Assembly (NCBI GenBank): GCA_017501345.1
Contig: JAFVXC010000019.1
Location: 1-60,209 of the forward strand
Length of the DNA: 60,209 nt
Direction of reading: 5' to 3'
Origin: Clostridia bacterium
GTDB taxonomy: Bacteria; Bacillota_A; Clostridia; Oscillospirales; CAG-272
Part shown: positions 20,259-52,761 of the stretch, piece by piece
Layout: every line of letters begins with the position of its first letter
Numbering within the stretch: the first letter of the stretch is position 1
Notes under the pieces: model-generated
Database searches by the model: none
Told to the model about the DNA's origin: nothing
Seen by the model: the letters and a program-made list of their open reading frames with translations, nothing else
Program-made: the position numbers and the translations under genes

Positions 20259-20355
20259 AGGAATGCCCTCCGAAACAGTAATCCGATTTATTATACCATA
20301 CACTCGTAAACAAATTTTGAATTTTTTTTGCATAGCATATTAAACTTAAAAACGG

Positions 20356-20401
20356 AAAGGGTAAAGTGCAAAAGCCGAAAAGCCTTTGCTCTCTACCCTT
20401 T
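20356..20401 (-). terminator. terminator downstream of spoVT
   Basis: AAAGGGTA (20356-20363) and TACCCTTT (20394-20401) close a two-part stem with an inner GCAAAAG/CTTTGC helix; read on the minus strand it follows the spoVT stop by about 10 nt. Confidence 0.6.
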
Positions 20402-20411
20402 TTCTGTTTGG

Positions 20412-20963
20412 TTAGCCCTCAAGCTGGCGGCCGAGGAATCCTGCGGCCGTCTGGATCAGCTTGGTCTCGACGTCGCTGTCGAGCGTTGTCTTTTCGCCTT
20501 CCCTCGGAAGGACCGAGATGACGCATCCGACGATATCTCCCTCGCTGAGGATCGGCATCGCAACGCTTACCGAATGGCTCGCGCCGTCTGCCGTAACGGG
20601 GATCTCGTCGTCCCCCTCCTTGTAGACGTAAAGACCGCGCTTTTCGATGATCGCTTCAAGCTCGGGGGAAAGCCGCTTGTCGCTGTACTCCTTCCGAGGA
20701 ACACCCGCAAGAGCAACGACCGCATCCCGATCAGAGATCAAAACGGCAAGTCCGCAGGTCCTGTGCAGGGTCTCGGCATACTGCGCGGCAAACGAGGAAA
20801 GCTCCCCAACGGGCGAATACTTTTTGAAAATGACCTCACCCTCCCTGTCGGTGTAGATCTCAAGCGGGTCGCCCTCGCGGATACGCATCGTTCTTCTGAT
20901 CTCCTTCGGGATAACGACGCGTCCGAGATCGTCGATTCTTCTGACAATTCCTGTTGCTTTCAT
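20412..20963 (-). CDS. spoVT: stage V sporulation protein T, AbrB-GAF regulator
   Basis: 183 residues from ATG 20963 (AAAGGAG 9 nt upstream). The N-terminal swapped-hairpin AbrB domain (MKATGIVRRIDDLGRVVIPK, to about 50) is nearly canonical SpoVT, followed by a GAF-like domain (about 60-180). In Bacillus and Clostridium it acts in the forespore under sigma-G and tunes late sporulation genes. Presence suggests the organism or its recent ancestors sporulate, though SpoVT persists in some non-sporulating Clostridia. A CGTATA followed about 19 nt later by CACTATTA upstream could be a weak sigma-G-like site; I am not confident in it. Confidence 0.92.
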   Translation of the reverse strand: MKATGIVRRIDDLGRVVIPKEIRRTMRIREGDPLEIYTDREGEVIFKKYSPVGELSSFAAQYAETLHRTCGLAVLISDRDAVVALAGVPRKEYSDKRLSPELEAIIEKRGLYVYKEGDDEIPVTADGASHSVSVAMPILSEGDIVGCVISVLPREGEKTTLDSDVETKLIQTAAGFLGRQLEG

Positions 20964-21252
20964 ATATATAAACTCCTTTGAACATTCCGATGAATTTGGC
21001 AATATCAAATGTTGCCTTAATAGTGTTCGCGTAATGTGGAAATTTATACGAAAGTCTTCGCTTTTTTTGCATTTTTCTGTTTTTTCGCAAAGGCACGAAA
21101 AAAAGTCAGGTAGCTGTCGGAAATGAGACATACAAGGGAGCACGAATTCGTCTTTTTCGCAAAGGGCTCATAAAAAGCACACATTCGCTCGAAGCAATGA
21201 GATGAATTCGATTAAAATATGTCAAAAAATAGGATTTCTTGAAAAATTTATG
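20964..21252. other. AT-rich intergenic region upstream of spoVT
   Basis: The stretch carries the spoVT ribosome binding site and presumably its promoter. No consensus sigma-A promoter, hairpin or small gene is convincing here; frames through it lack ribosome binding sites. Confidence 0.5.
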
Positions 21253-21281
21253 TTGACAATAGCAACATATTGTGATAAAAT
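21253..21281 (+). promoter_or_regulatory. promoter of the vWA-tubulin-GTPase operon
   Basis: TTGACA (21253-21258), 17-nt spacer, TAAAAT (21276-21281). It is the only strong promoter seen before the seven-gene operon. Confidence 0.85.
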
Positions 21282-21311
21282 ATTCCATATATATAAATAT
21301 TTTTTCATAGA

Positions 21312-21455
21312 TCGTGGAGGCTTTTTGATTATGACCTGATCCTCGGCACGCAATTTCGACCGTAAAACCTACTTACGGTCTTTTGGCGTGTCCGCGAAAG
21401 CCCCCGTCTTGTTCAACAAAGCTTGGCTCCCCGCCAAGTGACAATCAAAAGGAGA
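21312..21455 (+). promoter_or_regulatory. structured 5' leader with possible ribosome-binding-site sequestration
   Basis: Within about 170 nt of leader there is a 7-bp stem GGCACGC/GCGTGTC (21345-21351 with 21386-21392) enclosing an 8-bp hairpin GACCGTAA/TTACGGTC (21358-21380), then CTTGGC/GCCAAG (21422-21438). CTTTTTGATT (21321-21330) can pair with AATCAAAAG (21443-21451), which runs into the GGAG of the first gene. A minimal frame, ATG-ACC-TGA at 21331, follows its own GGAGG. The layout is riboswitch-like, but I could not match it to a known class. Confidence 0.5.
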
Positions 21456-21465
21456 TCATTACCAA

Positions 21466-24231
21466 ATGAAGAAAACCATCAGAAATTGTGCCGTCCTTAT
21501 GGCACTCGCGATGCTCGTCTCCCTGTTCGCGATCGGCATCGGTGCGGCGTCCGAGTCCGACTCGTACGAGATCGTGCTCCTGCTCGATACGAGCGGATCG
21601 ATGCAGAGCGAGTCCGACCCCACGCACATATCGGTCGATTCCGCAAGAGCGTTTGCGTACTACCGCCCCTCGTATACGGATATGTACGTCAGCCTCGTCG
21701 CGTATAACACGACCGCCTATACCGTAGCCGAAAGCCTGAACGTCAGCACCGATAGCGGTATGAACAGGTATCAGGAAGCACTTGATTCGATCGACGACAA
21801 CACGATCGGCACCTTCAAGTGCTGGAAGGGTATGACGAACATCGGCGATGCAATGCAGAAGGCAGAGGCGATCCTTTCGAAGTCCACCGCGACGCACAAG
21901 GCAGTCCTTCTCTTCACCGACGGTAAGACTGAGGTCAATTCCTTCTCTTACAAGGGTAACAGCTACTCGGGCACGGAGGCGGTCGAGAAGTGCATCGAAT
22001 GCGCACAGACCCTCGCAACCTCGTTCGGCTCTCAGGGCATCCGCGTTTACTGCGCCGGTCTTGATACCAGCGGCGAAAACCTCGACAGAAGCTTCCTCGA
22101 AAGCCTCTCGGGCGTTTCGAAGGGCACGACTGCAGTCTGCGCCAACGCTACCGAGGTATCCACGCTCTTTGCTAAAATCTTTGCAGACTTTCTCGGCGGT
22201 CAGTCCGGTGAAAAGAACGACTACGACCTGCTTCCGAACGTAGAGACCTCGCATACCGCCAACATATACGGTCAGATCATCAAGGAGGCAAACATCTCCC
22301 TGATCAGCAGCTCCGCGATCTCGTACTTCAAGGTCATTGCACCCGACGGAACGGTTGCCGTAGAGATCGGAGAAAGCAGCAACACACTGAACGCAAATCT
22401 ATGCTCGGTGGACAAGACCGAAAACAATATGCTCATCAACGTCAAGCTTCTCCGCCCGATGGACGGCGACTGGAAGGTCGTTATGATGAGCAAGACTGCG
22501 GGCAAGGTTACGCTGAACCAGGTCTACCTTTACGATCTGTCACTCGACTGCACCATCCCCACGCGCGTAGGTGCCGGTGAGGAGCTCTCCTTCGCCGCTA
22601 AGTTTATCAACGACGAGTCCTCGTCCGCGATCACCAATAAGCGTATCTACTCGGATTCCACGATGTCCGTGAAGATCACGGATCTCAATGCAGGCACGAC
22701 GAAGACCCTCACGGGCTCGCTCGATTCCTCGGGTCTCGCCTTCAACTTCAAGCAGGCGATGGACACCTGTGGCAAGTTCAAGATCGAATGCACGATCGAA
22801 AACCCTCAGATCAAGAAATCCCACGAGGCTACCGTCGAGGTGCTTCCCGCCGTTCCCGTGCTCTCCTCCTCCCCCGCAAGCGTTTGTATCGGAGAAAGCG
22901 CAACGCTGAAGCTCTCCTTCAAGAGTGCGCTCACGGGCAAGACACTCACCTCCCTTCCCTCCTATCTGAAGGACTTTACCGCATCGATCGACGTTCTGAA
23001 GGACGGCGTGAAGATCGAAACGATCTCGCTCAGTGCAAAGAACTTCTCAAACGGTGCCGTAACCCACACCTATACGCCCGACAGCGCAGGCAATTACACC
23101 TTTGACGCAAATCTCAAGGAGCAGAACGGAACCCTTCACTCGGTCGAGACCGCAGGAAGCGGCTTCGGCGCAACGCTGTCCTACTCGATTGGCGTGACTG
23201 CTCCCTCGGGCGACGTAAACTGCAAGGACGGCGCTAAGATCTCGGTCATTCTGAAAAACTCGAACGGCGACCCCATTGCAGTGCTTCCCGAAAGCTACGC
23301 AAACGTTCAGGTCACCATCAGCATCTTCTCGGGTGATTCGGTCGTTGATACCGCAACCCTGACGGCAGCCGATTTTGTCGGCGGCACCGTCGATTACGTC
23401 TTCAAGCCCAAGGCAGCAGGCTCCTACACGGTTGCCACGACCGTCCTGAACGACGGTGAAACCACCGAGGCAGAGCGTGTCTCGCTCTCTATCGTAAATT
23501 CGCAGATCTCCCTTTCCGATAATAAGCCCTCGGGCATCAAGGAAAGCAATTTTGAAGGCACCGCAGATAAGACGATCGACTTCTCGGGACTCTTCACTGA
23601 CAGCGACGGCGATGCACTCACCTACACGGTAAAGGTAAGCGATCCCGACGCTGTAACGGCTACGATCGAGGGCACAACGCTGAAGATCTCCGTAAGCAAG
23701 TTCACAAAGGGCACCGTTACGATCGTCGCAACCGATGCATACGGCGCATCCGCATCGCACGAGCTGAACGTCACGGTCAAGTCCGCAGTCGGCGGCCTCA
23801 TCGTGTGGATTATCGTCGCGATCGTCCTCGTCATCGGACTCGTCGTGCTCTTCATCGTCCTCAGAAAGAGAATGATCATCAGCACCGCGTTCGACGTGAA
23901 GATCACGAGCAACGAAAGCTATGATTCGGTCGTATACAGCATTGCGAAGCTGTCGAAGAAGAAGTACGCAAAGCCGACGATGACGCTTTCCGAGATCTTG
24001 AACAGCAATGCTGCGGATATCGTGAGCGGCGACCTGAACGCCTCCGACTTCATCGACTCCGATGCCTCCAAGATCTCCCTGACCGGTCTCATCAAGGGAC
24101 GCGGCTTCAAGATCGCGATCCAGGGCAAGCCCTCAAAGCGCACCTTCTCGGGCAGATCCCAGACCTCGGTCTCGGTCGGTGACTACAGCGTAGCGTTCGG
24201 CCGTGTCGGTACCTTCTCGGATGAATACTGA
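21466..24231 (+). CDS. secreted, membrane-anchored von Willebrand factor A protein
   Basis: A 921-residue protein. Signal peptide 1-28 (KKTIRNCAVLMALAMLVSLF), vWA domain about 33-245 with a complete MIDAS (DTSGS, the Thr in GMTNIG, and LLFTDGK), then two similar Ig-like repeats (about 460-560 and 575-690), a cadherin-like repeat (about 700-770), one membrane helix (about 776-801) and a 120-residue cytoplasmic tail rich in beta strands. So a metal-dependent ligand-binding head faces outside and a conserved-looking tail faces the cytoplasm. It is the first gene of the operon and follows a structured leader. It could be the surface sensor or adhesin of the system; ligand unknown. Confidence 0.88.
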   Translation: MKKTIRNCAVLMALAMLVSLFAIGIGAASESDSYEIVLLLDTSGSMQSESDPTHISVDSARAFAYYRPSYTDMYVSLVAYNTTAYTVAESLNVSTDSGMNRYQEALDSIDDNTIGTFKCWKGMTNIGDAMQKAEAILSKSTATHKAVLLFTDGKTEVNSFSYKGNSYSGTEAVEKCIECAQTLATSFGSQGIRVYCAGLDTSGENLDRSFLESLSGVSKGTTAVCANATEVSTLFAKIFADFLGGQSGEKNDYDLLPNVETSHTANIYGQIIKEANISLISSSAISYFKVIAPDGTVAVEIGESSNTLNANLCSVDKTENNMLINVKLLRPMDGDWKVVMMSKTAGKVTLNQVYLYDLSLDCTIPTRVGAGEELSFAAKFINDESSSAITNKRIYSDSTMSVKITDLNAGTTKTLTGSLDSSGLAFNFKQAMDTCGKFKIECTIENPQIKKSHEATVEVLPAVPVLSSSPASVCIGESATLKLSFKSALTGKTLTSLPSYLKDFTASIDVLKDGVKIETISLSAKNFSNGAVTHTYTPDSAGNYTFDANLKEQNGTLHSVETAGSGFGATLSYSIGVTAPSGDVNCKDGAKISVILKNSNGDPIAVLPESYANVQVTISIFSGDSVVDTATLTAADFVGGTVDYVFKPKAAGSYTVATTVLNDGETTEAERVSLSIVNSQISLSDNKPSGIKESNFEGTADKTIDFSGLFTDSDGDALTYTVKVSDPDAVTATIEGTTLKISVSKFTKGTVTIVATDAYGASASHELNVTVKSAVGGLIVWIIVAIVLVIGLVVLFIVLRKRMIISTAFDVKITSNESYDSVVYSIAKLSKKKYAKPTMTLSEILNSNAADIVSGDLNASDFIDSDASKISLTGLIKGRGFKIAIQGKPSKRTFSGRSQTSVSVGDYSVAFGRVGTFSDEY

Positions 24232-24290
24232 TCCCATAAAGCAAGATCTCAATTAAACACAACTTATATATAATTTAAGGAGAAAAATTC

Positions 24291-27200
24291 ATGGCTTACT
24301 ATGTACTTAACGACACCAAGCTCAGCGAATTGTCCGAGCTTAGTGCAAGCTCCCTCGGCGTTATCCAGAAGAATAGCGGTACCGCAATGAATCCCAATGC
24401 AAGAACCCTTGTCATTGGTCTTGGCGGCATGGGTCTTGCTACGGTCTACGAGCTGAAAAAGACCCTTGAGGAGAGAATCGGTAAGATCCCGGACAACAGC
24501 CCGGACATCAAATTCCTTGCGATCGACACCTCGAAAACCGAGTTGAATCTGCGTGTTGAGAGCGGCGTTCTCTCCGAGCAGGAGGTTTTCCACCTCTACA
24601 ATGACCACATCGGTCTTGAAATGAGAAGATCCCTCGATCCGAATCAGAGAGCATTGGTCTCGAAGCCGATCGAAAACATCATTCCTCCGATCGCTATGAA
24701 CTTCAACCCCGGCCTCGCAGGCTCGGGCGCAAACCAGGTCCGTCTCGCAGGCAGACTCTCGCTGATGGAGCCCGACATCTTTGTTCAGCTCTACAACCGC
24801 ATCAAGTCCGCGATCACGGCTCTGAGCGATTTCACGAGCAGAAACCTTGAGGTCTACATCGCAGCGGGCATCGGCGGCGGTACCGGTAGCGGCCTCGTCG
24901 TAGATATTCCCTACCTTGTCAGAAAAGTTCTCTCCGAGCTTGGCGTTCAGGACACCAAGGTCAGAATTTTCGGCCATATTTTCCTCCCCAACGTATACGA
25001 TGGCGGTCAGGTCGCCAGCCTTACGGGCGCATACAGAAACGGTTATGCGGCTCTGAAGGAGATCGACTACTATATGAACATCGAGCGCATCAACGAGACC
25101 TACGACGTCGTATTCCCGTCGGTCGGTGCGTTCTCCTCCTCGAAGGGCATCTTCAATCTCTGTACGCTTGTCGGCGGTAAGATCGCAACGAACAAGGTTC
25201 TTGAGGATCCGAAGAAATCTGCGATCGAATGCTGCGTTGCAAACCTCGTAAACCAGGTCACCAGCGCAAAGGCAAGTGATGACAAGGGGGCGCAGAACTC
25301 CCTCGCGGACATCTTTACATCCGATGCGTTCCTTGATAACATCAACTCCGCACTCAACTCGATCTTCGCATCGGGCGATGCAAAATTCCATAACAGCGGC
25401 AACTACAAGTATGCCTGCGTCGGCTCGGCTACCCTGAAGTTCCCCTCGAACGCGATCGTGGAATGCTTCGTCGGTGATGCTTACGCCAAGATGATCGCTC
25501 ACCTGAAGCAGAGAGCAGAGACCCTTCAGCAGAAGGATATCGATGCATTTGCCAAGGGTCTGATCGCCCCCGACGATCTCCTTGCTCCCTACCTCTCTGC
25601 CTTTATGAGCAAGATGGAGGATTCCCTCCCCGATATGAGCGAGATCAATAAGCGCTCTGTCACAAACAGCGGTGACATCGACTCGAAGCTGAACCGTATG
25701 GTCGACAACTTTGAAATGGACACCGACCTTCAGATGATCCCCACGAGGATCGCAGCCGCAAACAACAAGGCAGCAGAGATCTTCAAGGATTCGAACAGAG
25801 GTCCCTTCTACCTCGCACGTCTCCTGACGAGCCGCCATCAGACGGATGGCGTGGTCGGCTACTACGAGAAGCTCGACGCTTACGTCAACGAAATCGTCAA
25901 GAAGAAGCAGAATGCCGAGGACGAGGCAAAGCAGGCTGAAAAGGATCGCCGCGACTTTGCAAACAAGGATATGCAGAAGCTCATCGGTGGCTGCTCCGAC
26001 GCGAATAAGGAGAAGTATCTCGGTTACTTCAGAGAGATCTATCGGAAGAAGCTTGAGGCAAAGCTCTGCGATAAGCTCGCGAACGAGTACTATCACGCGA
26101 TCAGCAACAGAGTCGGCGCTTGCTACAAGATGAAGATCAACCTCGACACGAACTATCTCTACTACGTGGATATCCTCAGCCGCATCGGCGAGATCCTCGC
26201 ACAGAACGTATTGATCTCGAAGAAGGAGCTCTCCTCCGCTTCGGATGACGCAGGTAACATTCTCGCACTTTCGGGTGATGCTTGCCTCCGTCCGCTTCAG
26301 TTCAGCGTCGAAAAGACCCTTGAAAACAAAAAGAAGGATCTCACCGAGGATGCGATCAAGGCATTTGCCGCTGCTCTTACGGGTGATATTCTTGATAAGA
26401 AGGAAGCTTGGGCGATGGCTGAGACCGTCAACAGACAGCTCGGTATGTCGAGACCCGCAAACGCATTCAGAGCCTTCGTCAAGAACTACGCTCCCTTTGC
26501 AGACGTAGTCAACCAGAGCTTTGCAGGCTACTTTGAGGCTGCATATAAGGACGAAACCGAGTCCGCAAAGTCGGGCATCGTTTCCTACCTTGTCAATTAT
26601 CTGCGCACGAACTCCTCCCCGATGTTCAACATCTGGAACGACTTCTCGTGGGCAAGCATCAAGGAGCTTCAGCATCAGTACATGATCATTCCGAACAATA
26701 TGGGCGAATACTGGGGCGAGAAGTTCAAGACGAGCATCGGCTTCAACGGTATGACCAGCAATATCTTCGAGAGCCCCGACCAGAGCGCGATCTACAACTA
26801 CACGCTCTACGCAGGTCTCCCGATGTGGCTCCACGCCGACATCGTCAAGTACGAGGAAAAGTACTACGCGATGACCGCACCCGGTGTACATATCAACGAA
26901 AACGAGAGATTCCAGCCCTCCTATAAGGAATATCCCTCGCTGATGCCGCAGGAGCAGTGGTTCCACGCCGCTCAGGGCTCTCAGCTCTACCAGAACGATG
27001 CAGAGCTCGCAATCGACGCAGAGATCAAGACGCTCGTGAACTCCTGCCTGAAGCACGGTATCATCCATATGGATACGATGAGCAACCTGTACGTCGTTGA
27101 CCTGATCAAGAACAAGCCCGAGCCCGGCAGCGACAAGCTCAAGACCTTCTTCAAGAGATACCACGCAAATCCCGACAACCTGAAGGAGAACGGTATGCTG

Positions 27201-27878
27201 AAGGAGGGTGCAAACCTCTACAATGCCCTGCTTGCAGAGTACGGTGCGACCCGCGTCACGATCGCTTCGGTCGGTCACGCAAACGTTCGCCCCGACAGCG
27301 TAGACCTTCTGCCCACGCTCATCCGTCAGCAGATGAAGCTCGTCGGACTCCTCCGCAAGGAGCGTGCATATCTCCTCGCTGACGGATCGGTCACGAAGGA
27401 GGTAGAGCGCTTCAACGGAGAGATCGAGGGCAACAAGAAGCGCAACGAATACTTCAGCTTCCTGTTCTACGGACTCATCGCTCCCGGTGAGAGAGGCGTA
27501 TGGTCCTACCGTCTTGGCGAAAAGACCTACCAGATCACCTCAAAGCTTGAGGTCGGTGCAACCGAGAGAGAGCTCGTTGATTATATGGAAATGGCTGTTT
27601 ACAACGCGTTCTACAAGCACGAAAACATCGATGCACACGTAGGCCTTCTCAGATCGCAGGTATCGCAGTCGATCCAGGCGATCGTTGCAGGCTCGCTCGA
27701 CGTGAATGAGGTTCTCAAGAACTACAACACCTACGTCGATGGCGCAAACGAGAAGCTCGGCGCATTTATGCAGAAGCTCGCAAACGGCGAAGCACTCTCG
27801 CCGAAGGAGCTTGAGATCAAGGAATTCTACGAAGCCCTGAAGGCCGAGTTCAACGCGATCTACAAGGTCTTCTCGTAA
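24291..27878 (+). CDS. giant tubulin-like (Tubulin_2-type) GTP-binding protein
   Basis: A 1195-residue cytoplasmic protein. Residues about 38-80 contain a Rossmann-like start (TLVIGLGGMGLATVYELKK, then FLAIDT), residues 143-157 read GSGANQVRLAGRLSL, and residues 195-201 are GGGTGSG, the glycine-rich tubulin/FtsZ signature that contacts GTP phosphates. The order matches the family called tubulin-like (Tubulin_2), not FtsZ: it is three times longer and carries about 900 additional residues with helical, Lys-rich stretches. Whether it polymerises is unknown. It sits between the vWA gene and two unrecognised genes in one operon with a second, P-loop GTPase. Confidence 0.85.
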   Translation: MAYYVLNDTKLSELSELSASSLGVIQKNSGTAMNPNARTLVIGLGGMGLATVYELKKTLEERIGKIPDNSPDIKFLAIDTSKTELNLRVESGVLSEQEVFHLYNDHIGLEMRRSLDPNQRALVSKPIENIIPPIAMNFNPGLAGSGANQVRLAGRLSLMEPDIFVQLYNRIKSAITALSDFTSRNLEVYIAAGIGGGTGSGLVVDIPYLVRKVLSELGVQDTKVRIFGHIFLPNVYDGGQVASLTGAYRNGYAALKEIDYYMNIERINETYDVVFPSVGAFSSSKGIFNLCTLVGGKIATNKVLEDPKKSAIECCVANLVNQVTSAKASDDKGAQNSLADIFTSDAFLDNINSALNSIFASGDAKFHNSGNYKYACVGSATLKFPSNAIVECFVGDAYAKMIAHLKQRAETLQQKDIDAFAKGLIAPDDLLAPYLSAFMSKMEDSLPDMSEINKRSVTNSGDIDSKLNRMVDNFEMDTDLQMIPTRIAAANNKAAEIFKDSNRGPFYLARLLTSRHQTDGVVGYYEKLDAYVNEIVKKKQNAEDEAKQAEKDRRDFANKDMQKLIGGCSDANKEKYLGYFREIYRKKLEAKLCDKLANEYYHAISNRVGACYKMKINLDTNYLYYVDILSRIGEILAQNVLISKKELSSASDDAGNILALSGDACLRPLQFSVEKTLENKKKDLTEDAIKAFAAALTGDILDKKEAWAMAETVNRQLGMSRPANAFRAFVKNYAPFADVVNQSFAGYFEAAYKDETESAKSGIVSYLVNYLRTNSSPMFNIWNDFSWASIKELQHQYMIIPNNMGEYWGEKFKTSIGFNGMTSNIFESPDQSAIYNYTLYAGLPMWLHADIVKYEEKYYAMTAPGVHINENERFQPSYKEYPSLMPQEQWFHAAQGSQLYQNDAELAIDAEIKTLVNSCLKHGIIHMDTMSNLYVVDLIKNKPEPGSDKLKTFFKRYHANPDNLKENGMLKEGANLYNALLAEYGATRVTIASVGHANVRPDSVDLLPTLIRQQMKLVGLLRKERAYLLADGSVTKEVERFNGEIEGNKKRNEYFSFLFYGLIAPGERGVWSYRLGEKTYQITSKLEVGATERELVDYMEMAVYNAFYKHENIDAHVGLLRSQVSQSIQAIVAGSLDVNEVLKNYNTYVDGANEKLGAFMQKLANGEALSPKELEIKEFYEALKAEFNAIYKVFS

Positions 27879-27926
27879 TCAACAGGATCGATTAAAAATC
27901 AACTAAATCGACAAAAATCAACACGG

Positions 27927-27960
27927 GCAAGAAGAGGGGGCCGTGGCTCCCTCTTCCTGC
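27927..27960 (+). terminator. intercistronic hairpin, possible attenuator
   Basis: GCAAGAAGAGGG (27927-27938) pairs with CCCTCTTCCTGC (27949-27960) with one mismatch. The following TTTCCATTTG is only moderately T-rich, so it may attenuate rather than end transcription. It lies in the one long gap (27879-28201) of the operon; no promoter is evident after it. Confidence 0.5.
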
Positions 27961-28201
27961 TTTCCATTTGTCCTGAGCCCGAATGGGTTCCCTTGCAAAT
28001 ACTATTGTTGTTGCCCTGCAAGCCCATCCATACGCTCCGTCTATCGGATGCACTTTTTATATCTTATCCTATTTTTCGAAGCGTGATACGAATTCACGGT
28101 TCGATTCCAAGCCTTGCAATCACGGTGCCAACGGCACCTGAAAATATATTGATTCAGTCGGTCTCCCATTCTGAAGCCGACGTTTATGGAGGATGGCTTT
28201 T

Positions 28202-29926
28202 ATGCCCAGCTTGAACCATTTATACCGTACGGTATACCAGACCGGCACAAAAAAATACGATCCGGATAAGCGCCACTACACGATCGTACTGGCGGCAAAC
28301 GCACCATACGAGGGCTTTTTCGATTCTATGGAACAGAACCTGAAGCTCCGTATGAATGACGACACGGTCTCGGTCGTTAACCGCTCAGAGGAAAATCCGA
28401 ACGAGACGAGACTCCGCATTCGCGATATTCGTGATAACCTTTACGAGCAATACTACGAGTACGAGTCGCTCCCGATGAATTTTGTGCTCATCGACTACAT
28501 AAAGGACGGATCGCCCGAGGAGTATCGGCGCGTGGCAGAATTCCGCGAGTGGATCGGAGATATGAACCTCCGTCCCGCAGACAAGATATTCGTCATCTAC
28601 GTACTCCGCGGCGATAAGGATGCAGTCGATCTTGCAAAGACCATCCCCTCCGTTGCCTACGAGGACGTGCATTTCTATTGGTTCACGCTTGCAAGTGACG
28701 CATCCGAGGTCAAAAAGACGAACGTGCTCAACAGCATCTGCGGATCCGTGATTCTGAACTCCTTCCCCGAGCAGTTCACAAAGCACGATCAGCGCAGAAA
28801 CAATGCGGTCGCTGAGGCAGAAGCCTTCAAAAAGAATCTGAACGAGTCTGCCGCAGGACTTTTTGCACCGAGCGAAAAGCTGATCTGGTCCTCCCTGCAC
28901 TGCAGATTCTTCGACCGCAAGATGGATTTTCTTGCGTGGTGCTCCTACAATCTTTGCGATAAGATGAAGCGCCTCGACAAGAGCATCGTGATGGAATCCT
29001 TCCGCCAGCTCTATAAGAATAACGTAAGAGAGGGTAGCAACCGCGACGAGACCAAGGCGGCGCTTCTCTTTGCCATCAAAATGATCCCGACCGTCGAGCC
29101 CCCGCCGAAGAAGAAGCGAAATGAAAGCAACTCTCTGAAGGGACACTTCGAGCGTCTCTACGGCCACGGCGGCGAAAAGATCGTAGAGCTTTCCCTGAAG
29201 ATGACCTATGCGTCTCTCCAGAGCTCCTCGACGATGCCTCCTCTCCAGATCTGTGCACAGAAGCTTTACAACGAGTGCAAGCGCTACTACACCGAGGATC
29301 TTCATACGACGATCCACTCGGCACTTGAGGAATATATCGAAAATGAGCTCAGACCGATGCTCGATCAGAAGGAGAGAAGCCTTCACGGTATGCTGAACCA
29401 GGGAGAGATCGATGAGGAGATGCTCTTCCACCACTACGAGAATAAGCAGCCCATCGTTTCCGATTATATTGGAAAATATATTGAGGTCTACGAGTTCCAT
29501 AAGGAGCTTGATTTCTGGGTAAATATGTCCCACTACCTGATGGCTGCCAAGGAGGAGCTTGCCAAGCTCGCACAGGAATCGACCGCCGTTCTGAACGAAA
29601 TCGCCGCCTTCAAGCAATTCTGCAAGGAGTCGATGGTTCCGATCGAGGACACCGAGCATATCGTATTCGAGGAATGCTCGATCGACGATATCCAGGCCTT
29701 CATCGCAGGAAAGCCCTCTGCGGCAAAGCATTATGAGGTCATCCGCAGAGCCTTCAAGGAAACAGCTTCCGCGCGCGAAACGCACGCCGTCAACCACTTG
29801 AACGACGTCGTGAGCCTCCCGCTGATCCACAATATTTACTGCGACGTCGACGTATCCTTCGAGCACGACACCTATTCGATCCGCGGCTTCGAGCGTAACG
29901 GTAAATATATGATTTTCGGTGATTAA
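28202..29926 (+). CDS. uncharacterised operon protein
   Basis: 574 residues from ATG 28202, chosen because GGAGG lies 9 nt upstream (an ATG at 28193 is too close to it). No signal peptide or membrane helix. The first 190 residues look alpha/beta (YTIVLAANAP, NFVLIDYIKDG, DKIFVIYVLRGD alternate with helices), the remainder mostly helical. I do not recognise a family or catalytic motif. It is conserved in position between the tubulin-like gene and the GTPase, so it probably acts with them as an adaptor. Confidence 0.75.
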   Translation: MPSLNHLYRTVYQTGTKKYDPDKRHYTIVLAANAPYEGFFDSMEQNLKLRMNDDTVSVVNRSEENPNETRLRIRDIRDNLYEQYYEYESLPMNFVLIDYIKDGSPEEYRRVAEFREWIGDMNLRPADKIFVIYVLRGDKDAVDLAKTIPSVAYEDVHFYWFTLASDASEVKKTNVLNSICGSVILNSFPEQFTKHDQRRNNAVAEAEAFKKNLNESAAGLFAPSEKLIWSSLHCRFFDRKMDFLAWCSYNLCDKMKRLDKSIVMESFRQLYKNNVREGSNRDETKAALLFAIKMIPTVEPPPKKKRNESNSLKGHFERLYGHGGEKIVELSLKMTYASLQSSSTMPPLQICAQKLYNECKRYYTEDLHTTIHSALEEYIENELRPMLDQKERSLHGMLNQGEIDEEMLFHHYENKQPIVSDYIGKYIEVYEFHKELDFWVNMSHYLMAAKEELAKLAQESTAVLNEIAAFKQFCKESMVPIEDTEHIVFEECSIDDIQAFIAGKPSAAKHYEVIRRAFKETASARETHAVNHLNDVVSLPLIHNIYCDVDVSFEHDTYSIRGFERNGKYMIFGD

Positions 29927-29945
29927 CAAGAACGGAGACACAGAG

Positions 29946-30599
29946 ATGTTTAGTAATGTAAATATAAACTCGGCAGACGCCACCATCTCAACGCATTGGA
30001 GATGGAACTACGTCAGAGGCGGGGTCGTTCCGCGTTGCACCTATTTTTGCTGTGATATGCCCGAGGACGTTTTCCTGAAGCGCTCACTTTTCCTTGAAAA
30101 CGAGATCCTCGCCTGCTTTGAGGAGGATATCCTGCGTATCGACGGCGAGGACTCCCGCGATGATGCATTCCGTCTTTACAATTCAACGCACAGCGACTCC
30201 TCCCGCCTTATCGAATGCCAGCTGGAAAGCGGCGATCCAATCGAAAAGGATATCAATATTGCTGTTGAGCCAAATAAAAAGAGCCGCATTTTCTATGTTT
30301 GCGTATACGATGGCCATCAGCATAAGGCAAAGGTCATAGCTCCCAGCAACCACGACGTGCTGGAGGTAAAAAAGACGAAGCCCGGCTTTATGCGTCCGTA
30401 CCAGATGATCGAGCTTCCGAATGCAGATGGGCGCAAAAAGGTGCTGAAATGTCAATACAAGGGATTTACCACCTATTCGGTTCTGCCCGAGCGCTGTGAC
30501 AAGTATTACTTCGACCGCGAGAAGGATATCGAGAATATTCAGATCCAGTACCTCTCTATCCTGACAAATCCCGGCGGAGGCCACGGCAACCAGGGCTGA
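29946..30599 (+). CDS. uncharacterised beta-rich operon protein
   Basis: 217 residues from ATG 29946 with GGAGA 7 nt upstream, 19 nt after the previous gene. The product is beta-rich and soluble, with Cys at RCTYFCCDMPED and no recognisable motif; it ends in a Gly-rich GGGHGNQG. No family comes to mind. Its small size and position suggest an accessory subunit of the same complex. Confidence 0.7.
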   Translation: MFSNVNINSADATISTHWRWNYVRGGVVPRCTYFCCDMPEDVFLKRSLFLENEILACFEEDILRIDGEDSRDDAFRLYNSTHSDSSRLIECQLESGDPIEKDINIAVEPNKKSRIFYVCVYDGHQHKAKVIAPSNHDVLEVKKTKPGFMRPYQMIELPNADGRKKVLKCQYKGFTTYSVLPERCDKYYFDREKDIENIQIQYLSILTNPGGGHGNQG

Positions 30600-30668
30600 T
30601 CCCCTCGCACCACGTTGCTGAAGAAAAAGGAATCAATTTTCTATATTCTATATTAAGGAGAAAAAGAT

Positions 30669-32207
30669 ATGCATGACATTATTTGCCCTGCGTGCGGCAG
30701 CCGTTTCATCGCACGAGACGTAGCCTTTGATATGTCTCAGTACATCACCGAGCTTCTGTTCGACGATCCGCGCGATGAGGACCGTATCTTGAGCGCAGGC
30801 TTCAAGTACTACGCGGACGAGGAGAGCATCGTCTCGAATACGACCGAGGACAACGAGGTTCCGCTCTTCTGCGAAAGATCGGTCGGTCCCGATTCGTCCG
30901 ACCCGTGGTATCCCTACGTCGTTACAGGCAGAACCGTTCTTGATTACATCGAATCGAGAATGAACAATCTGAACGCCGATTTCGACGAGCTTCTCGAGGA
31001 CATCCGTGAGGTTTACGAGGACACCCAGCAGCACTACAACGTGCAGCAGAGAAACTTCATCAGAGAGCTGTATCAGAGATTCTTCGCGGCGGCTGAAAAT
31101 ACCACCGAGTTCGACATCGACGACTACAACGTGCAGACCGCGATCCAGATCCTCCTTTACCTCAGCGACAACGAGGAAAAGAGCCTGACGCTCAATATTC
31201 GTCTTTACAGCTCGGGTGCCGGTGCCTCAAACAAGGGTGGATACGTCATCCCTGATATCCTCTTCCTGCTCGAAAACGGCAGAAGCAAGCGTATCAACAA
31301 GTGCTGCAGAAACTGCGGCGCGCAGATGCCGATGGAATACGGCTACTACAAGATGGTACCCGTCGTCCTGCTCGGCTCCCACTTCTCGGGTAAGACCTCG
31401 CTCCTGCTTGCAACGCTCTTCACCGCGAAGTTCAGAGCGCCCTTCTCAACGATCAACACGAATCTCAGCATATCGACGCTCGACAACGACCCCGATCTGG
31501 TCGCCTTCAACAACAATATTCAGCGTTACGCAGACGGTCTGTCCACCATCAAGACCGACTTCTCGAACATCCCGATCCTCAATCTCCGCGTGAACGACAC
31601 GATCTACACCTTTGTCGACTGGCCGGGTGAGAAATTCATCAGCGCGAACGAAGAAAAGGACGCAGACTTCATCTTCAACAAGAGAAGGATCATTTCCGAG
31701 GCAAGACACTTTATCTGCTGCCTCGAGCCCTCGCAGATCGACAGCAGCGTCGGTGAGGCGGATGAGAATGTCAGATTCAACGCAATGGATCTCGTCGAAA
31801 GATTCAGATGGCATATGCACTTCGCAGACCTTGAGCGCCTCAGAAGCATCGTATGTGTCATCAACAAGTTTGACGTTCTGAACGGACGCAGCAATACCGC
31901 GCCCGTATTCGATATGACGGCAGAGCTTTCCGAGAGCGACATCTACTCCGACTCGACGTGGAAGCAGGAAGCGTTCGACCGTGTCAACAACACGACCAAG
32001 CGTTATATGGAGGGCCGTGCAGCAATCCTTTACAGCTCCTTCGAGAAAATGCTCGACCTCGAAAGCATTCCGAAGTATTATTTCCCGGTCTCCCCCTACG
32101 GTCAGAACCCCGAGGGTGCGGATGACAACGGCTTCGTAACCAACAACGGTCACTTTGCCGGTATGCCCCTCCTCTCGATCCTCAAGACCGACCTCATCAT
32201 TCAGTAA
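30669..32207 (+). CDS. P-loop GTPase with an interrupted zinc ribbon
   Basis: 512 residues. The nucleotide-binding set is complete: P-loop GSHFSGKTS (236-244), DWPG as the DxxG switch motif (317-320) and NKFD as the NKxD guanine-specificity motif (399-402), so it is a TRAFAC-type GTPase rather than an ATPase. A CPAC pair at residues 6-9 and a CRNC pair at 213-216, right before the P-loop, would together make one four-Cys zinc ribbon with a 200-residue helical insert. No membrane segment. It starts at ATG 30669 behind AAGGAG. It lies directly before the GAP1-like gene, and the two likely interact. Confidence 0.88.
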   Translation: MHDIICPACGSRFIARDVAFDMSQYITELLFDDPRDEDRILSAGFKYYADEESIVSNTTEDNEVPLFCERSVGPDSSDPWYPYVVTGRTVLDYIESRMNNLNADFDELLEDIREVYEDTQQHYNVQQRNFIRELYQRFFAAAENTTEFDIDDYNVQTAIQILLYLSDNEEKSLTLNIRLYSSGAGASNKGGYVIPDILFLLENGRSKRINKCCRNCGAQMPMEYGYYKMVPVVLLGSHFSGKTSLLLATLFTAKFRAPFSTINTNLSISTLDNDPDLVAFNNNIQRYADGLSTIKTDFSNIPILNLRVNDTIYTFVDWPGEKFISANEEKDADFIFNKRRIISEARHFICCLEPSQIDSSVGEADENVRFNAMDLVERFRWHMHFADLERLRSIVCVINKFDVLNGRSNTAPVFDMTAELSESDIYSDSTWKQEAFDRVNNTTKRYMEGRAAILYSSFEKMLDLESIPKYYFPVSPYGQNPEGADDNGFVTNNGHFAGMPLLSILKTDLIIQ

Positions 32208-32222
32208 CAGGAGGCGTTTATT

Positions 32223-34892
32223 ATGCAATTCTTCTTTGGAGACAACAGATCCAAATACGACCTGTTGTATACCGATGCGCCCAAAAGATCGGATGCACAG
32301 TCCATTTGCAATAAGATAAGCCTTCCCTTTTCTCCCGAGGCGGGTTACGACGTTTTCGGCTATATGCCGCTCGGAACGAACGCAAACAGCCCGATGTTCT
32401 TCCGTTGCCGTCACGATACGGGCATCACCCAGCGTGGTGCGTATTATCTGCACGGCGTTTACCTCGATGCGCAGCCTGACTTCTTTTTCTCAAACGACTA
32501 CGTGAAAGGTATTATGATAAAATATGCGGACCAGGCTGCGTTCGATAAGCTCCGTGAGGATCCGAACGGCTTCTCCTATACGCTCGGCGTAGAGGAGGAG
32601 CTGATGAACGCGCCCCTCGACGAGAACACGCTCGAAAAGGGTAAGCTCATCGAGATCCTTGCAAACGTTTATCAGAGAAACAAATTCATCATCGTTGTGG
32701 ACGACGAGGCATTTGAGGCAAATTACCTGCGTCAGCTCCTGCGTCTGGTGTTCAGCTATCTCACTCCCTCGCTTCGTAAGACCTGCTCGTACGTTACGGC
32801 AATGCCGACGGGCGGCGACTTTATGATCCGCATCATCAAGCGTAGCACCTACCGTAAGGATCGCACCCCCTGTGTCGATCTTTCTGCGCCTCCCACCGAT
32901 GCGGGCATCCCCGCGCAGTATTACGATCTCGCTACGAGCCTCATCGACGCGACGAAGGCACAGCGTGACCGCAAGTTCGAGCTCTTCGAGGACGTTTACT
33001 ACGGCAAGCTCTCCTCCTACCAGAAGCAGGGCTTCAACGATTTTCTGGCAAGTGATAACGGTACGGTCGAGGGATACGAAAAGCTCCTCACGCAGTATCT
33101 TGAAGACAGACGCTTCGACGAGTCTATGGGAATCCCGAGGATCCTCTCGGAGGAGTTGTCCGAAACGTACGCGGATGAAGCCTATCTCGACGGTGTGCTG
33201 AATCTCGCCGGATTCGACGTTCTGAAGCCGCTCGACTACTACCCGAAGAATCTGACCGCGCTCCGCAAGTATTACTTCCTTGCCTCCGACTCCACGTTCG
33301 AATACGGGCGTAGGAGGATCGCCGAGAAGTACGCACAGAATGTCGGAACGATCGACGATAAGAATTTCCCCCAGATCGACCGTATGATCGTCTCCGCGGC
33401 ACCAAACCTTACCGACGACCGTATGGCGAATCTTAAGAGCAAGATCGAGGAAAGCTTCACGCGCGCCCTCCGGAACGTGCTTGCAGTGATCTCCTCTCGC
33501 CGTAAGGCATATTTGGAATTAACCTCCGAAAGCACCATCAAGGAGGTGCTCGCCCCCGAGCTCAGGCTCTACCGAGATGAACCGATCCCCGACGAGAAGA
33601 TCGATCCTACCGTTGACGAGCTGATCTCCCGTTATATGGCGGCACAGGCAGAAACGCTGAAGGAAAAGAACATCTGCATCACGGCGGCGGCTACCGCCGA
33701 GGCGAAGAAGCAGATCGCACTCCACAACAAGAGAGCCAACGAAAAGATCGCCGCAGACAAGGCACGCCGGGAACAGGAAGCCTTTGACGCGGAGACAAAG
33801 GTGTTTGAAGATAAGTTCGGTGAAATTGCCGCCCTGATGGCTCAGGTTGAAAAGCAGCTGAAATCGCAGAAGGCGGTCAAGGCGCAAAAGGGCTCGACTC
33901 CAATCTCCTGGAAGAGCTTTTCGTATCGCGAAAAGCTTCTCGCACTTCGTGAGGTCCCAGAGCGATTTGAGGAAGAAATGGCACTCTGCCTCCTGAATCA
34001 TATGCTCTACTCCTATCAGGCAGACGAAGCCTTCTTTACAGAGGAGGACGAGATCCTCAGAAATCACTCCGACCGCAGAACCGTTCTGACGGTCATCAAG
34101 GTTGCTCTGCAAAACGCCGCGGGCGAGCCCACGGCAGGCTGGATCTGGTCCCCCTACGCGGTGGCTTATGCAGGATCCTTCAAGGACCTCTTTGATACCG
34201 TGGTTGAAGCGGCTACGGTCTATAACGAACAGCTTAACGCCCTCCCCCAGCCCGCATTCAAGCAGTCCTGTGATCAGTTCAAGCGTATGATGGATACAAA
34301 GCCCCCGATGCTGACGCACGAGGAGCACGCAGACTGTCTTGCGGATAAGCCGAAGCTTGATCAGCTCCTCGCAACGAGCAAGCTCGCACAAAAGCTGAAG
34401 CCGATCATTGACGGATATCTGAAGAAGCCCGTTTTTGTCGAGGATATGAAGCCTGCAGCAAACGAGACGGCTTCCGAGAACGAGGATGCCACCTCGTGGG
34501 ACGACGCATACGTTCCTACGGAAAAGGCATCCGCAAGAAAGCCCTCCGGCACCGGCCAAAAGTCGGGTGGATGGGCAACCATTCCGTTCTATGCGTCCGC
34601 CGCACTGAACCTGGTTCTGATTGCCGCCCTGGTCCTCGTATTTATGTTCGGAAACAGCTTCTTCTCAAGCGGTGACGCGGACACGACCGAGCCCTCGGCT
34701 GTTTCCGACCCCGTCGGAAGCGACGATCCCACGGATCCCGCCGATGACGGCGGTGAGCTCGAGGATCCGACCGACGAAGGCAGCGGATCGGGCACCTCTA
34801 CGCCCGCAGACGACGTTACCACTGCAGGCGACGCTACCACTGCAGGCGACGTTACCTCGGCAAATGACTCCTCAGAGTCATCCGAGTCCTGA
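32223..34892 (+). CDS. membrane-anchored GTPase-associated (GAP1-like) protein
   Basis: 889 residues, starting 15 nt after the GTPase stop. The first 250 residues resemble the GAP1 N-terminal and middle domains described for GTPase-centred bacterial systems (YLHGVYLDAQPDFFFS, then LLRLVFSYLTPSLRKTCSYV). Residues about 495-560 form a Lys/Glu-rich coiled coil. A single membrane helix (about 789-811) is followed by a 75-residue Asp/Ser/Thr tail that would lie outside the cell. So it could tether the GTPase to the membrane. Family assignment is from memory of the sequence pattern and should be tested by profile search. Confidence 0.7.
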   Translation: MQFFFGDNRSKYDLLYTDAPKRSDAQSICNKISLPFSPEAGYDVFGYMPLGTNANSPMFFRCRHDTGITQRGAYYLHGVYLDAQPDFFFSNDYVKGIMIKYADQAAFDKLREDPNGFSYTLGVEEELMNAPLDENTLEKGKLIEILANVYQRNKFIIVVDDEAFEANYLRQLLRLVFSYLTPSLRKTCSYVTAMPTGGDFMIRIIKRSTYRKDRTPCVDLSAPPTDAGIPAQYYDLATSLIDATKAQRDRKFELFEDVYYGKLSSYQKQGFNDFLASDNGTVEGYEKLLTQYLEDRRFDESMGIPRILSEELSETYADEAYLDGVLNLAGFDVLKPLDYYPKNLTALRKYYFLASDSTFEYGRRRIAEKYAQNVGTIDDKNFPQIDRMIVSAAPNLTDDRMANLKSKIEESFTRALRNVLAVISSRRKAYLELTSESTIKEVLAPELRLYRDEPIPDEKIDPTVDELISRYMAAQAETLKEKNICITAAATAEAKKQIALHNKRANEKIAADKARREQEAFDAETKVFEDKFGEIAALMAQVEKQLKSQKAVKAQKGSTPISWKSFSYREKLLALREVPERFEEEMALCLLNHMLYSYQADEAFFTEEDEILRNHSDRRTVLTVIKVALQNAAGEPTAGWIWSPYAVAYAGSFKDLFDTVVEAATVYNEQLNALPQPAFKQSCDQFKRMMDTKPPMLTHEEHADCLADKPKLDQLLATSKLAQKLKPIIDGYLKKPVFVEDMKPAANETASENEDATSWDDAYVPTEKASARKPSGTGQKSGGWATIPFYASAALNLVLIAALVLVFMFGNSFFSSGDADTTEPSAVSDPVGSDDPTDPADDGGELEDPTDEGSGSGTSTPADDVTTAGDATTAGDVTSANDSSESSES

Positions 34893-34955
34893 TCGGTATC
34901 CCAAACGATTTGCTCCACACATTTATTTTAGCATTCTAACGAAAAGGGGAAAGCA

Positions 34956-36206
34956 ATGTATCAAATCAAATCCAACACGCACCGTATCACACGATTTGTG
35001 ATCGGTGAAGCGTATAAGTGGCTTTACCGTGAGATCGATAAGGGAAATTATACGACGAACAAGCACACCGAAGCCAGAAATCTTATGGCACGCATTAAGG
35101 CCGCGAAAAAGCTCGACGCAGAAACCTACTCCGCGTTTCTCGAGATGATGAACAACAGTCCCTTTAACCATCTGATCGGTCAGAAAAACAAGACGCCCAC
35201 CATTACCACGAATAACATTATGAATTATTTTGTGGAATTCAACGGCGTTGCGCTTCCGCTCGGCTTCATTATGGAATTCTTTGAGGACGAATATGAAATG
35301 CCGAAGGATCGTCAGAAGGTCATCGACGCCTTCATCGACTCCGAAAGAAATCAGTCGTTCGGCGACACCTGCAGAGCAGAGATTATGAAGCATCTCGATC
35401 CGCAGACCAAGTTCAGAAAGAAGTATCCCTGCGTTTTCTCGACGCCCGCAGGCTTCTACGCATCTCACATTGCCCGCGTGATCTTCACCATCGTTCTTGC
35501 CGTATTCTTCTTTACGTTTATGGCGCAGAGCCGTATGGGGGCGATCCTCGGCGACTACCTGCTCGACGCAAAGTTTGACGCCAAGGCTGAGATCTCCGCA
35601 GAATACGGTGTGATCGAATCCTACCTGCAGGAGATCGACACTGCAGATCCGCTCAATCCCATTCAGTACAAAGATTATTTTGCAAAGTTTGGCGGACATA
35701 TCGCGCTGAACGCTCTGCTCTTTATCATCCTGCTGTTCAGACTTTCGCACCTCATTAAATTTATCATCGTCGTGATCAAGCTCCTCTCCGCAAGATTTGC
35801 GCTGAATAAGCAGGACGCGGATATCGCGTATCTGGACGATCAGGGCATTGAGGATATGAAGGCTTACTTCTCTGAGATCGCTCCTTCGCTGAAGAAGAGC
35901 CGTAAGTTCACGGAGGATATGTTCGAGGGCGTTCCGAAGGCAAGCAAGCGCTACGTTTCGGTCGTGAATTTCGAATTCAACAAGATCGAACGGAGCATCC
36001 GCAATATGTACTCCAGCTCGAGTGCGAAGAAGATCAACGCAATATACACGAACGAGACCGAGCTTTCGATCTGCAGAAAGAAGTGGCGCTCCGGCTTCAT
36101 CAGACTGTCGCTGCTCACCATCTTCTTCCTGATCGTCAACATTTCCGGCCTGTACGAGCTCATCATTCCCCAGGTTGCAGAGATCATTGTGAACATTTTC
36201 GGTTAA
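34956..36206 (+). CDS. three-TM membrane protein of unknown function
   Basis: 416 residues, last gene of the operon. An N-terminal cytoplasmic region of 165 residues (basic, helical), then membrane helices at about 170-190 and 247-275, a cytoplasmic helical domain (276-378) and a C-terminal hydrophobic segment (about 380-415). No family recognised. It may act as a membrane platform together with the vWA and GAP1-like proteins. Ribosome binding site AAGGGGAAAG precedes ATG 34956. Confidence 0.75.
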   Translation: MYQIKSNTHRITRFVIGEAYKWLYREIDKGNYTTNKHTEARNLMARIKAAKKLDAETYSAFLEMMNNSPFNHLIGQKNKTPTITTNNIMNYFVEFNGVALPLGFIMEFFEDEYEMPKDRQKVIDAFIDSERNQSFGDTCRAEIMKHLDPQTKFRKKYPCVFSTPAGFYASHIARVIFTIVLAVFFFTFMAQSRMGAILGDYLLDAKFDAKAEISAEYGVIESYLQEIDTADPLNPIQYKDYFAKFGGHIALNALLFIILLFRLSHLIKFIIVVIKLLSARFALNKQDADIAYLDDQGIEDMKAYFSEIAPSLKKSRKFTEDMFEGVPKASKRYVSVVNFEFNKIERSIRNMYSSSSAKKINAIYTNETELSICRKKWRSGFIRLSLLTIFFLIVNISGLYELIIPQVAEIIVNIFG

Positions 36207-36228
36207 ACCGAGGCATAGTATAAACCCG

Positions 36229-36263
36229 AAGGGGCTGAGTCAAATTGACTCAGCCCCTTTTTT
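36229..36263 (+). terminator. terminator of the vWA-tubulin-GTPase operon
   Basis: A perfect 15-bp stem: AAGGGGCTGAGTCAA (36229-36243) with its complement (36244-36258), then a T-run. Very strong; it closes the operon about 20 nt after the last stop. Confidence 0.95.
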
Positions 36264-36285
36264 CAGGATATAACTAACGGAAATA

Positions 36286-37626
36286 TCAGCGCGTCTCGGT
36301 CTCTCTGCGGAAGAACAGAACCGAAGCAAGCGCTACCGTAACGGTCACGAAGATCCCCACAGGCAGACGAAGGACCGATCCGCAGCCCTCGTCCTCTGTC
36401 GCGGGGGCGTCCGGTGACGCGGTGTCGGCATTCGTTTCGGGATCGGATCCGTCTGTTCCCTCCTCATCGGTATCGGAGGATGGCTCGGTGACTTCACAAT
36501 CGTCCGTATCGAGGGCTGTCACGGTCGTTTCGGAGGGATCTGTCTCTCCCGTCTCTTCCGTGGAATCCGTCGGCGTTTCGTCTCCCTCGGTCGTCTCATC
36601 TGTCGTATACGAATCCTCTGTTTCGGTCGTTTCAGTGGGTTCCTCCGACGTCGATTCTCCCGCTCCGCTATCCGTCAAGGACTCGGAGCCTGAAGTCTCA
36701 TCGGTTGCAACATCCGCCTCGGTCTCGGTCGTTTCCTCCTCGGGATCGTCCCGTACGATCTCCAGAACGGTATCCGCGATCACCGCGTGTCCCGCCGCGT
36801 TCGGATGGAAATCGAGATTCGGAGCGAATAAGCTGTCGGCATTCGCAACGCAAAGATTCTCGGAGGAGCCTCTGAAGGCTGTGTATACGTCGGCTACCGT
36901 ATAGCCGAGCGCATCCGCATTATCCGTGATCACCTCGTTCAGTGCCACGACACCCGCCTCGACCTCGGTGTAAAGAGCACCGTATATCCTATTCTCCTTA
37001 AAGGCATTGTAGGGATTGTACTGCGTGTTCAGAACGATCGTTGCGGTCTCATTTTTCGCACGGAGGTACTGCATCACGCGTGTGAGATCCTCCTCATAGC
37101 GTTCGATTCCCGCACGGAAGGCATCGGTCTGTGCAAAGTCGACGAGCACCGTCGAGGCATACTGCAGGAGCGACGCGATCGTAAGCGTTTCGTGCGTACC
37201 CGCAAACGCCGAAAGCACCTCCTCGGGCTCGATGTCGGGATCCTTCTCGGCGTTATACGCATCTGCGATCGCCGCATACAGAAGTGCCATCATATCGTTT
37301 CCACCGCAGGTCAGCGTGATCAGCTCTGCCCCCTCGATCTCTGCGTCGAGCGCGCCGTCCTTGATCTGTCGGTAGATATCCTCTGCCGTATATCCGTTCA
37401 CCGCGCGGTTCTCGAGCGTATAGCCGCCCTGCGAAGCAACGATGTAGGTATACCCCTGCACGGAAGGACTCGAAAGCCCATAGCCTGTCGAAATACTGTC
37501 ACCGAGCGCGAGATAGTCCCTTTCACTCTCAGCGCCCGCAGCAAAAGCATACGAGGAGCAGACCGAAAGTACGATCAGCGCCGCAAGTAAACATGCAACG
37601 AGCCTTCTCTGTTTTGTCATTAGCAT
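36286..37626 (-). CDS. surface SGNH/GDSL hydrolase with Ser/Thr/Glu-rich stalk
   Basis: 446 residues. Signal peptide (about 1-30), SGNH hydrolase domain about 35-280 with LALGDSISTGYG (catalytic Ser in GDS), CGGND and the DFHPNAAGH Asp/His block. A Thr/Ser/Glu/Asp-rich linker (about 285-415) leads to a C-terminal membrane helix and RRETETR, the layout of a wall-spanning anchored enzyme. Such lipase/esterase-fold proteins deacylate lipids or glycans at the surface. It lies 8 nt downstream of a beta-helix protein gene, with which it is co-transcribed. Confidence 0.88.
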   Translation of the reverse strand: MLMTKQRRLVACLLAALIVLSVCSSYAFAAGAESERDYLALGDSISTGYGLSSPSVQGYTYIVASQGGYTLENRAVNGYTAEDIYRQIKDGALDAEIEGAELITLTCGGNDMMALLYAAIADAYNAEKDPDIEPEEVLSAFAGTHETLTIASLLQYASTVLVDFAQTDAFRAGIERYEEDLTRVMQYLRAKNETATIVLNTQYNPYNAFKENRIYGALYTEVEAGVVALNEVITDNADALGYTVADVYTAFRGSSENLCVANADSLFAPNLDFHPNAAGHAVIADTVLEIVRDDPEEETTETEADVATDETSGSESLTDSGAGESTSEEPTETTETEDSYTTDETTEGDETPTDSTEETGETDPSETTVTALDTDDCEVTEPSSDTDEEGTDGSDPETNADTASPDAPATEDEGCGSVLRLPVGIFVTVTVALASVLFFRRETETR

Positions 37627-37634
37627 AAATCTCC

Positions 37635-52192: not shown

Positions 52193-52428
<236 letters not shown>

Positions 52429-52429
52429 A

Positions 52430-52558: not shown

Positions 52559-52731
52559 CTATCTTCTTTTGGATTTGAGCCAACGACGTCTGCGGGCAAC
52601 AGTCACAGCGGCGAAGCCGCGGTGACTGGCAATGTTTGCCGGTTTGCGTAGCAAATGTGGGGCGCCGCCCCACAAGGCAAACTTGCGGCATAGCGGAACG
52701 CTATGCGGTTTAATAGCGCCCAACGGGCGCG

Positions 52732-52745: not shown

Positions 52746-52761
52746 TTTAAGATTTTCTCGC

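Follow-up and report, generated by a model that had tools for sequence, protein, structure and literature searches.

A divergent clostridial seven-gene locus probably of the DO-GTPase/tubulin-like kind, with a predicted interrupted tubulin fold

In a 60,209-nucleotide stretch from a Clostridia bacterium (contig JAFVXC010000019.1; hereafter the window), seven open reading frames (ORFs) follow one another on the + strand at 21466-36206, where the first-pass annotation of this DNA had placed a seven-gene operon. It is highly probable that this operon belongs to the DO-GTPase/tubulin-like kind (FtsZl1, GAP1-N2 tubulin theme). The vWA/FtsZl1/GTPase operon was predicted from genomes in 2010 (Makarova and Koonin, PMC2875224), and the DO-GTPase/GAP1-N2 tubulin theme in 2020 (Kaur et al., eLife 9:e52696, PMC7159879). 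The parts, the topology and the membrane-linked, GTP-driven reading given at first pass hold up, but the core is not undescribed, and the presence of two GTP-binding folds in the same operon, said to be unusual, is a published hallmark of the kind (PMC2875224, PMC7159879). The kind rests on genome comparison, and no experimental study of it was found among the literature matches listed. The core is real, conserved and of known kind; the strongest additions made here are a predicted interrupted tubulin fold and TIR-tubulin fusions in relatives. For the whole statement that the operon is a divergent clostridial-type variant that works across the membrane as sensor, switch and scaffold, we estimate a probability of about 45%.

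The order vWA-tubulin-gene 3-gene 4-GTPase-large protein was found again in other genomes. L001 (from Clostridia bacterium RGIG5330 of sheep colon) and L002 (from an uncultured Lachnospiraceae) each have seven genes that agree in order and size with those of the window, and the order in Brevibacillus, Paenibacillus and Lutispora is vWA-tubulin-gene 3-transmembrane (TM) vWA-small gene-GTPase-GAP1. One Brevibacillus operon bears Tubulin_2 (6.1e-78), DO-GTPase2 (2.7e-9), GAP1-N2 (8e-47) and GAP1-M (4.6e-30); it corresponds to the GAP1-N2 tubulin theme (PMC7159879) and to the FtsZl1/vWA/GTPase operons (PMC2875224). The gene-order sample consisted of 113 sequences, from which 20 short loci (L081-L100) were excluded beforehand and five (L031, L066, L104, L109 and L110) were dropped for lack of a matching tubulin ORF of >700 residues; 15 of the 88 left had no flank, giving 73 loci including the window. 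With profiles seeded from some of the same loci, and with genes 3, 4 and 6 labelled by construction for the window, L001 and L002, a vWA gene was recognised in 72 loci, GAP1 in 69, the GTPase in 67 and all three in 66, the full trio being incomplete in L039, L049, L063, L065, L075, L076 and L112. In this survey of gene neighbourhoods, of the sort proposed at first pass, the vWA, tubulin-like and GTPase genes do recur together elsewhere, in the same order, and the refuting outcome named there, homologues that never co-occur, did not arise. In FtsZl1 operons as published, the vWA and GTPase genes are frequent, not universal (PMC2875224).

Gene 2 (24291..27878, +) encodes a tubulin-like protein (Tubulin_2/FtsZl1) of 1195 residues, which matches Tubulin_2 (PF13809) with an E-value of 6e-43 and carries GGGTGSG at residue 195, in agreement with the first reading of the sequence. 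The predicted structure, together with the motif, points to a tubulin/FtsZ fold with GTP-binding loops; a product with no GTP-binding fold, which had been named as grounds for giving up that reading, is not what the model predicts. The features of FtsZl1 proteins are present, namely great length, an N-terminal FtsZ-like domain that contains GGGTG(S/T)G, a helical middle and a helical C-terminal region, as are the vWA and GTPase neighbours (PMC2875224). Makarova and Koonin found no similarity to tubulin in the C-terminal part of FtsZl1 (PMC2875224), whereas in the predicted structure of gene 2 a tubulin C-terminal domain is present but interrupted by a long helical insertion at about residues 410-786. 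The C-terminal part of FtsZl1 therefore looks like a tubulin-type domain broken up by a long insertion, and this model is a testable answer to why it resisted relation to tubulin in 2010. If the model is right, filament formation is a reasonable expectation. A candidate stretch for the T7 catalytic loop lies at residues 324-344, where D340 is shared by 69% of 76 rows. The top matches among viral structure models were only FtsZ/tubulin-like folds, and a sequence search for solved relatives gave nothing better than E = 4.7e-4, the matches being weak ones to FtsZ or unrelated. Compared with CetZ, FtsZ, BtubAB and eukaryotic tubulin, gene 2 is about three times longer, has the helical insertion and a C-terminal extension, and lies among other neighbours.

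At E <= 1e-3, gene 2 has 485 relatives. Among the best 120 of these, 63 (the window's own included) score at least 420 bits, beyond which the scores drop to 262 and then to 155. In a tree of 88 sequences, the 60 members of this high-scoring group that were included fall together with the window into a single clade (support 0.94), with L002 outside it. Two Tubulin_2 proteins bear C-terminal TIR_2 domains, P0044 at residues 1032-1151 and P0047 at residues 1017-1108 (E = 2.2e-18 each), and they form with P0063 a clade (support 1.0) within the window's 22-leaf clade (0.994). The TIR piece of P0044 matched nothing among PDB sequences at 1e-3. No report of a TIR-tubulin fusion was recognised in the literature matches listed, nor in the available text of PMC7159879 and PMC2875224; through these fusions, an enzyme activity might serve as readout in a system whose role has so far been argued from gene neighbours alone. 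In one clostridial operon (L102:8633-15750) two tubulin-like genes, of 985 and 1142 residues, occur together, and further pairs are hinted at by source pieces of equal size (P0012/P0062, P0046/P0052 and P0055/P0059).

Gene 5 (30669..32207, +) encodes a DO-GTPase-like P-loop GTPase of 512 residues, with the P-loop at 236, DWPGE at 317, NKFD at 399 and CxxC at 6 and 213, which bears out the second GTPase of the first-pass annotation. Judged from these residues, it appears to have what defines a DO-GTPase, an N-terminal zinc ribbon and a Walker B glutamate. Its score against DO-GTPase2 (PF19993; E = 5.6e-5, 23.4 bits) is under the cut-off of 27, which its counterparts in L002 (36.4) and L101 (38.4) pass. 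Used as a lone query, gene 5 matched L001 (2.4e-41), L002 (2.4e-17), L101 (2.2e-13) and L028 (6.9e-5).

Gene 1 (21466..24231, +) encodes a vWA protein of 921 residues (VWA_2, E = 3.9e-10). Its motifs DTSGS (residue 41), MTN (123) and LFTDG (149) agree with a complete metal ion-dependent adhesion site (MIDAS), and hydrophobic segments at 8-26 (signal-like) and 779-797 (TM) are followed by a tail of 124 residues. The protein would thus hold its vWA and Ig-like regions outside, the latter scoring below the Pfam cut-off, and its tail inside, much as first described. As a lone query, gene 1 matched L010 (1.3e-28) and L002, and the gene in the vWA place of L001 matched gene 1 in turn (2.6e-11). That L001 gene (L001:6731-9937) has Big_9 repeats but is not matched by Pfam VWA, and DIGSN stands in place of the expected DxSxS.

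The remaining four genes have no significant Pfam match, so that only two of the seven products, vWA and Tubulin_2, receive clear Pfam names; NCBIfam gave nothing at its cut-offs for the operon products. Gene 3 (28202..29926, +; 574 residues) occupies the place of "gene 3" in related operons and has an N-terminal alpha/beta domain of no known family, with non-specific structure matches. A role for it as a second tubulin is not supported, as single-gene and iterated tests gave no profile link and the folds are non-specific; the Bacilli gene in this position gave P 30 and E = 5e-4 against a tubulin profile and 0.077 with Tubulin_2. Gene 4 (29946..30599, +) encodes a small protein in the position of the small gene that is FNIII-type in Kaur et al. 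(PMC7159879), and an FNIII assignment has no Pfam or profile support. Its WxW near the N-terminus, a motif picked after looking, recurs in 13 of the 19 genes in the corresponding position, and 10 of those are close relatives. Gene 6 (32223..34892, +; 889 residues) has one TM-like segment (791-809) and an acidic, polar tail of 80 residues with 21 D/E, 26 S/T and no K/R; a "highly-polar C-terminal extension" is described for firmicute GAP1 (PMC7159879). The single TM segment reported at first pass stands, but the GAP1-like label is positional, with no sequence support. Matches of gene 6 to GAP1 profiles were rejected, since leave-one-out tests traced them to the inclusion of L002. By position and architecture, gene 6 may be a far-diverged GAP1 or a stand-in for it. 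Gene 7 (34956..36206, +; 416 residues) has hydrophobic stretches at 172-197, 242-283 and 381-407 and is predicted to be a membrane protein with three or more TM segments, which leaves the earlier count of three as a minimum; it matches gene 7 of L001 (1.4e-9) but not the gene in the same place of L002. The latter (L002:19703-21154) ends in a YARHG domain (E = 7.8e-12). Searches with genes 3 and 6 gave 4 and 1 relatives, respectively, besides the window's own, and source pieces of the same size (15043) suggest, without proving it, that P0004, P0122 and P0127 are linked. Genes 3, 4 and 6 as lone queries match nothing outside the window. Taken together, the single-gene tests link the core (vWA, tubulin and GTPase) to other operons by sequence, and the rest by place and build.

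In comparison with the GAP1-N2 tubulin theme (PMC7159879), the window has the vWA protein, the tubulin-like protein, the zinc-ribbon DO-GTPase and then a large TM protein with a polar tail, in the order of the Bacilli operons that bear GAP1-N2. Unlike that theme, gene 6 has no detectable GAP1-N2, FNIII is not recognisable, and a multi-TM gene 7 closes the operon. The firmicute version as described has two tubulin genes and two vWA genes (PMC7159879); the window has one recognisable tubulin, and among its seven products only gene 1 matches Pfam VWA. The absence of a second vWA places the window operon under the wider kind and not under the described firmicute version. The window version is set apart by its lack of a second vWA, by a gene 7 with several TM segments and by genes 3, 4 and 6, which cannot be recognised as members of known families.

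Several results, the missing second vWA among them, weigh against a divergent DO-GTPase/tubulin-like variant acting as sensor, switch and scaffold. The Bacilli GTPase profile alone misses gene 5 (hhalign, P 5.2), although L101 and L002, which gene 5 matches directly, do match that profile. Genes 3 and 4 showed no sequence link to other operons in single-gene and profile tests, and none of the searches made for gene 6 (Pfam, phmmer, profile and iterated profile) linked it to a GAP1, the hhalign comparison with Bacilli GAP1 giving P 4.9. In L109 and L110, which are more distant, the Tubulin_2 gene lies between a vWA-like gene ahead of it and two other large genes after it, neither a GTPase nor GAP1 being recognised beside it. 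Moreover, the tubulin-like gene is present in 23 of 26 Brevibacillus-genus genomes, which resembles a stable trait more than the scattered occurrence of a defence system. Elsewhere it is patchier, being found in 26 of 51 genomes in the genus of Paenibacillus castaneae, and in Clostridia it is rare (6 of 391 genomes at 1e-20, 8 of 395 at 1e-20 and 4 of 200 at 1e-30, the centre genome counted each time). In a scan of named genomes, the best 80 of 243 tubulin-like relatives came largely from Paenibacillus and Brevibacillus. The Tubulin_2 gene of L103 has none of the vWA, GTPase and GAP1 neighbours.

If the operon is such a variant, its vWA region may sense a ligand, either of the envelope or foreign, and the tail of gene 1 would relay the signal inward; there, a threshold that depends on GTP may be set at the membrane by the gene 5 GTPase and gene 6. 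The tubulin-like protein would then assemble at the membrane as a scaffold or filament, an output platform that recruits or activates variable parts, namely genes 3, 4 and 7 and, in two relatives, the TIR domain borne by the tubulin-like protein; the transfer of signal from vWA to filament is what we infer. As for its role, a regulated response to conflict or stress is the likeliest, with a conflict role by itself a little short of even odds. The TIR_2 ends of P0044 and P0047 suggest an immune-type output. A fuller version, in which an immune or stress signalosome leads from an envelope sensor through a GTPase switch to a tubulin filament as activation platform, with a tubulin bearing a large helical insertion as its subunit and the GAP1 partner rebuilt or replaced in the window, is unlikely as a whole; in the TIR-bearing relatives, polymerisation could then trigger NAD+ consumption. 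Among the known-defence models of PADLOC-DB 2.0.0, only LeoA matched, against gene 5 at E = 0.54, and absence from that library excludes nothing.

A membrane-remodelling or vesicle-forming cytoskeletal machine was proposed by Makarova and Koonin (PMC2875224), in which the tubulin-like protein would polymerise under the membrane and deform it, with the vWA and TM proteins as anchors. The membrane proteins of the operon and the predicted tubulin/FtsZ fold are consistent with this, but it needs neither the second GTPase nor the TIR fusions of relatives, and a reviewer of that paper already put forward signalling instead (PMC2875224); we regard it as rather improbable. Just as improbable is signalling in envelope sensing or development with no conflict, the vWA reading the state of the cell wall and the GTPases setting a stress or sporulation response. 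The frequency of the tubulin-like gene in the Brevibacillus and Paenibacillus genera and the YARHG domain in L002 favor it; the patchiness of that gene in Clostridia, the fast change of genes 3, 4 and 6 and the TIR fusions do not. Still less likely is a hybrid in which genes 3, 4 and 6, lacking sequence links to L001, L002 or Bacilli operons, are unrelated newcomers in old positions and the FtsZl1/vWA/GTPase core has taken new partners in place of GAP1, since gene 6 keeps its position, a similar length, one TM segment and the polar tail, and other clostridial counterparts are poorly recognised too (GAP1-M 5.9e-5 to 2.2e-4 in L107 and L102, and 8.3e-5 in L002). These weak scores across clostridial loci fit a gradient of divergence. 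An iterated GAP1 profile from Bacilli finds L002 and L107 and, less strongly, L102 and L101, but neither the window nor L001, and hhalign of the clostridial "close" set against other clostridial GAP1 failed (P 1.4). A viral or plasmid origin is not supported: no tubulin-like relatives were found in viral contigs and phage records, distant Tubulin_2 genes occur in three plasmid records, and PHROGs gave one chance-level match (gene 1).

A promoter-like site (TTGACA-17-TAAAAT with an extended -10 TG; 21253..21281, +) matches the consensus at 11 of 12 positions and is the top one of 18 such sites in 20300-37700. Because shuffled sequence averages 10.9 comparable sites, the single promoter seen at first pass is only suggestive. 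One transcript for the seven genes is plausible, although the 323-nucleotide gap between genes 2 and 3 contains a stable hairpin without a U tract (27925..27962, +; -25.9 kcal/mol, z -3.95). Ribosome-binding sites point to likely start codons at 28202 (gene 3) and 29946 (gene 4). With the former, the intergenic gaps are 59, 323, -8, 69, 15 and 63 nucleotides, and the -8 overlap of genes 3 and 4 vanishes with the latter. The terminator named earlier is indeed found at 36228..36263 (+) as a hairpin of 15 pairs (-27.2 kcal/mol, z -7.95), whose T run occupies 36258-36263. In the 5' leader, 21340-21400 folds into a stable hairpin (-23.7 kcal/mol, z -4.66) with no Rfam match; the Rfam scan of 20300-38000 gave a single, chance-level match, and an RNA element is not supported.

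Elsewhere in the window, the PADLOC matches of ORFs at 0.8-6 kilobases look like generic ATPase similarity and were set aside. For the HPr kinase, 303 of 391 sampled Clostridia have a match; the best one is 62% identical, and no identity among the matches listed exceeds 63%. Within a low-G+C stretch, a VapE-like/NrS-1-polymerase-like gene at 9743-11809 suggests a remnant of a mobile element. At 52193-60000, tRNA-Asn and tRNA-Lys lie at a drop in G+C, and after them come genes for a pair of AraC-type regulators and for an FAD oxidoreductase.
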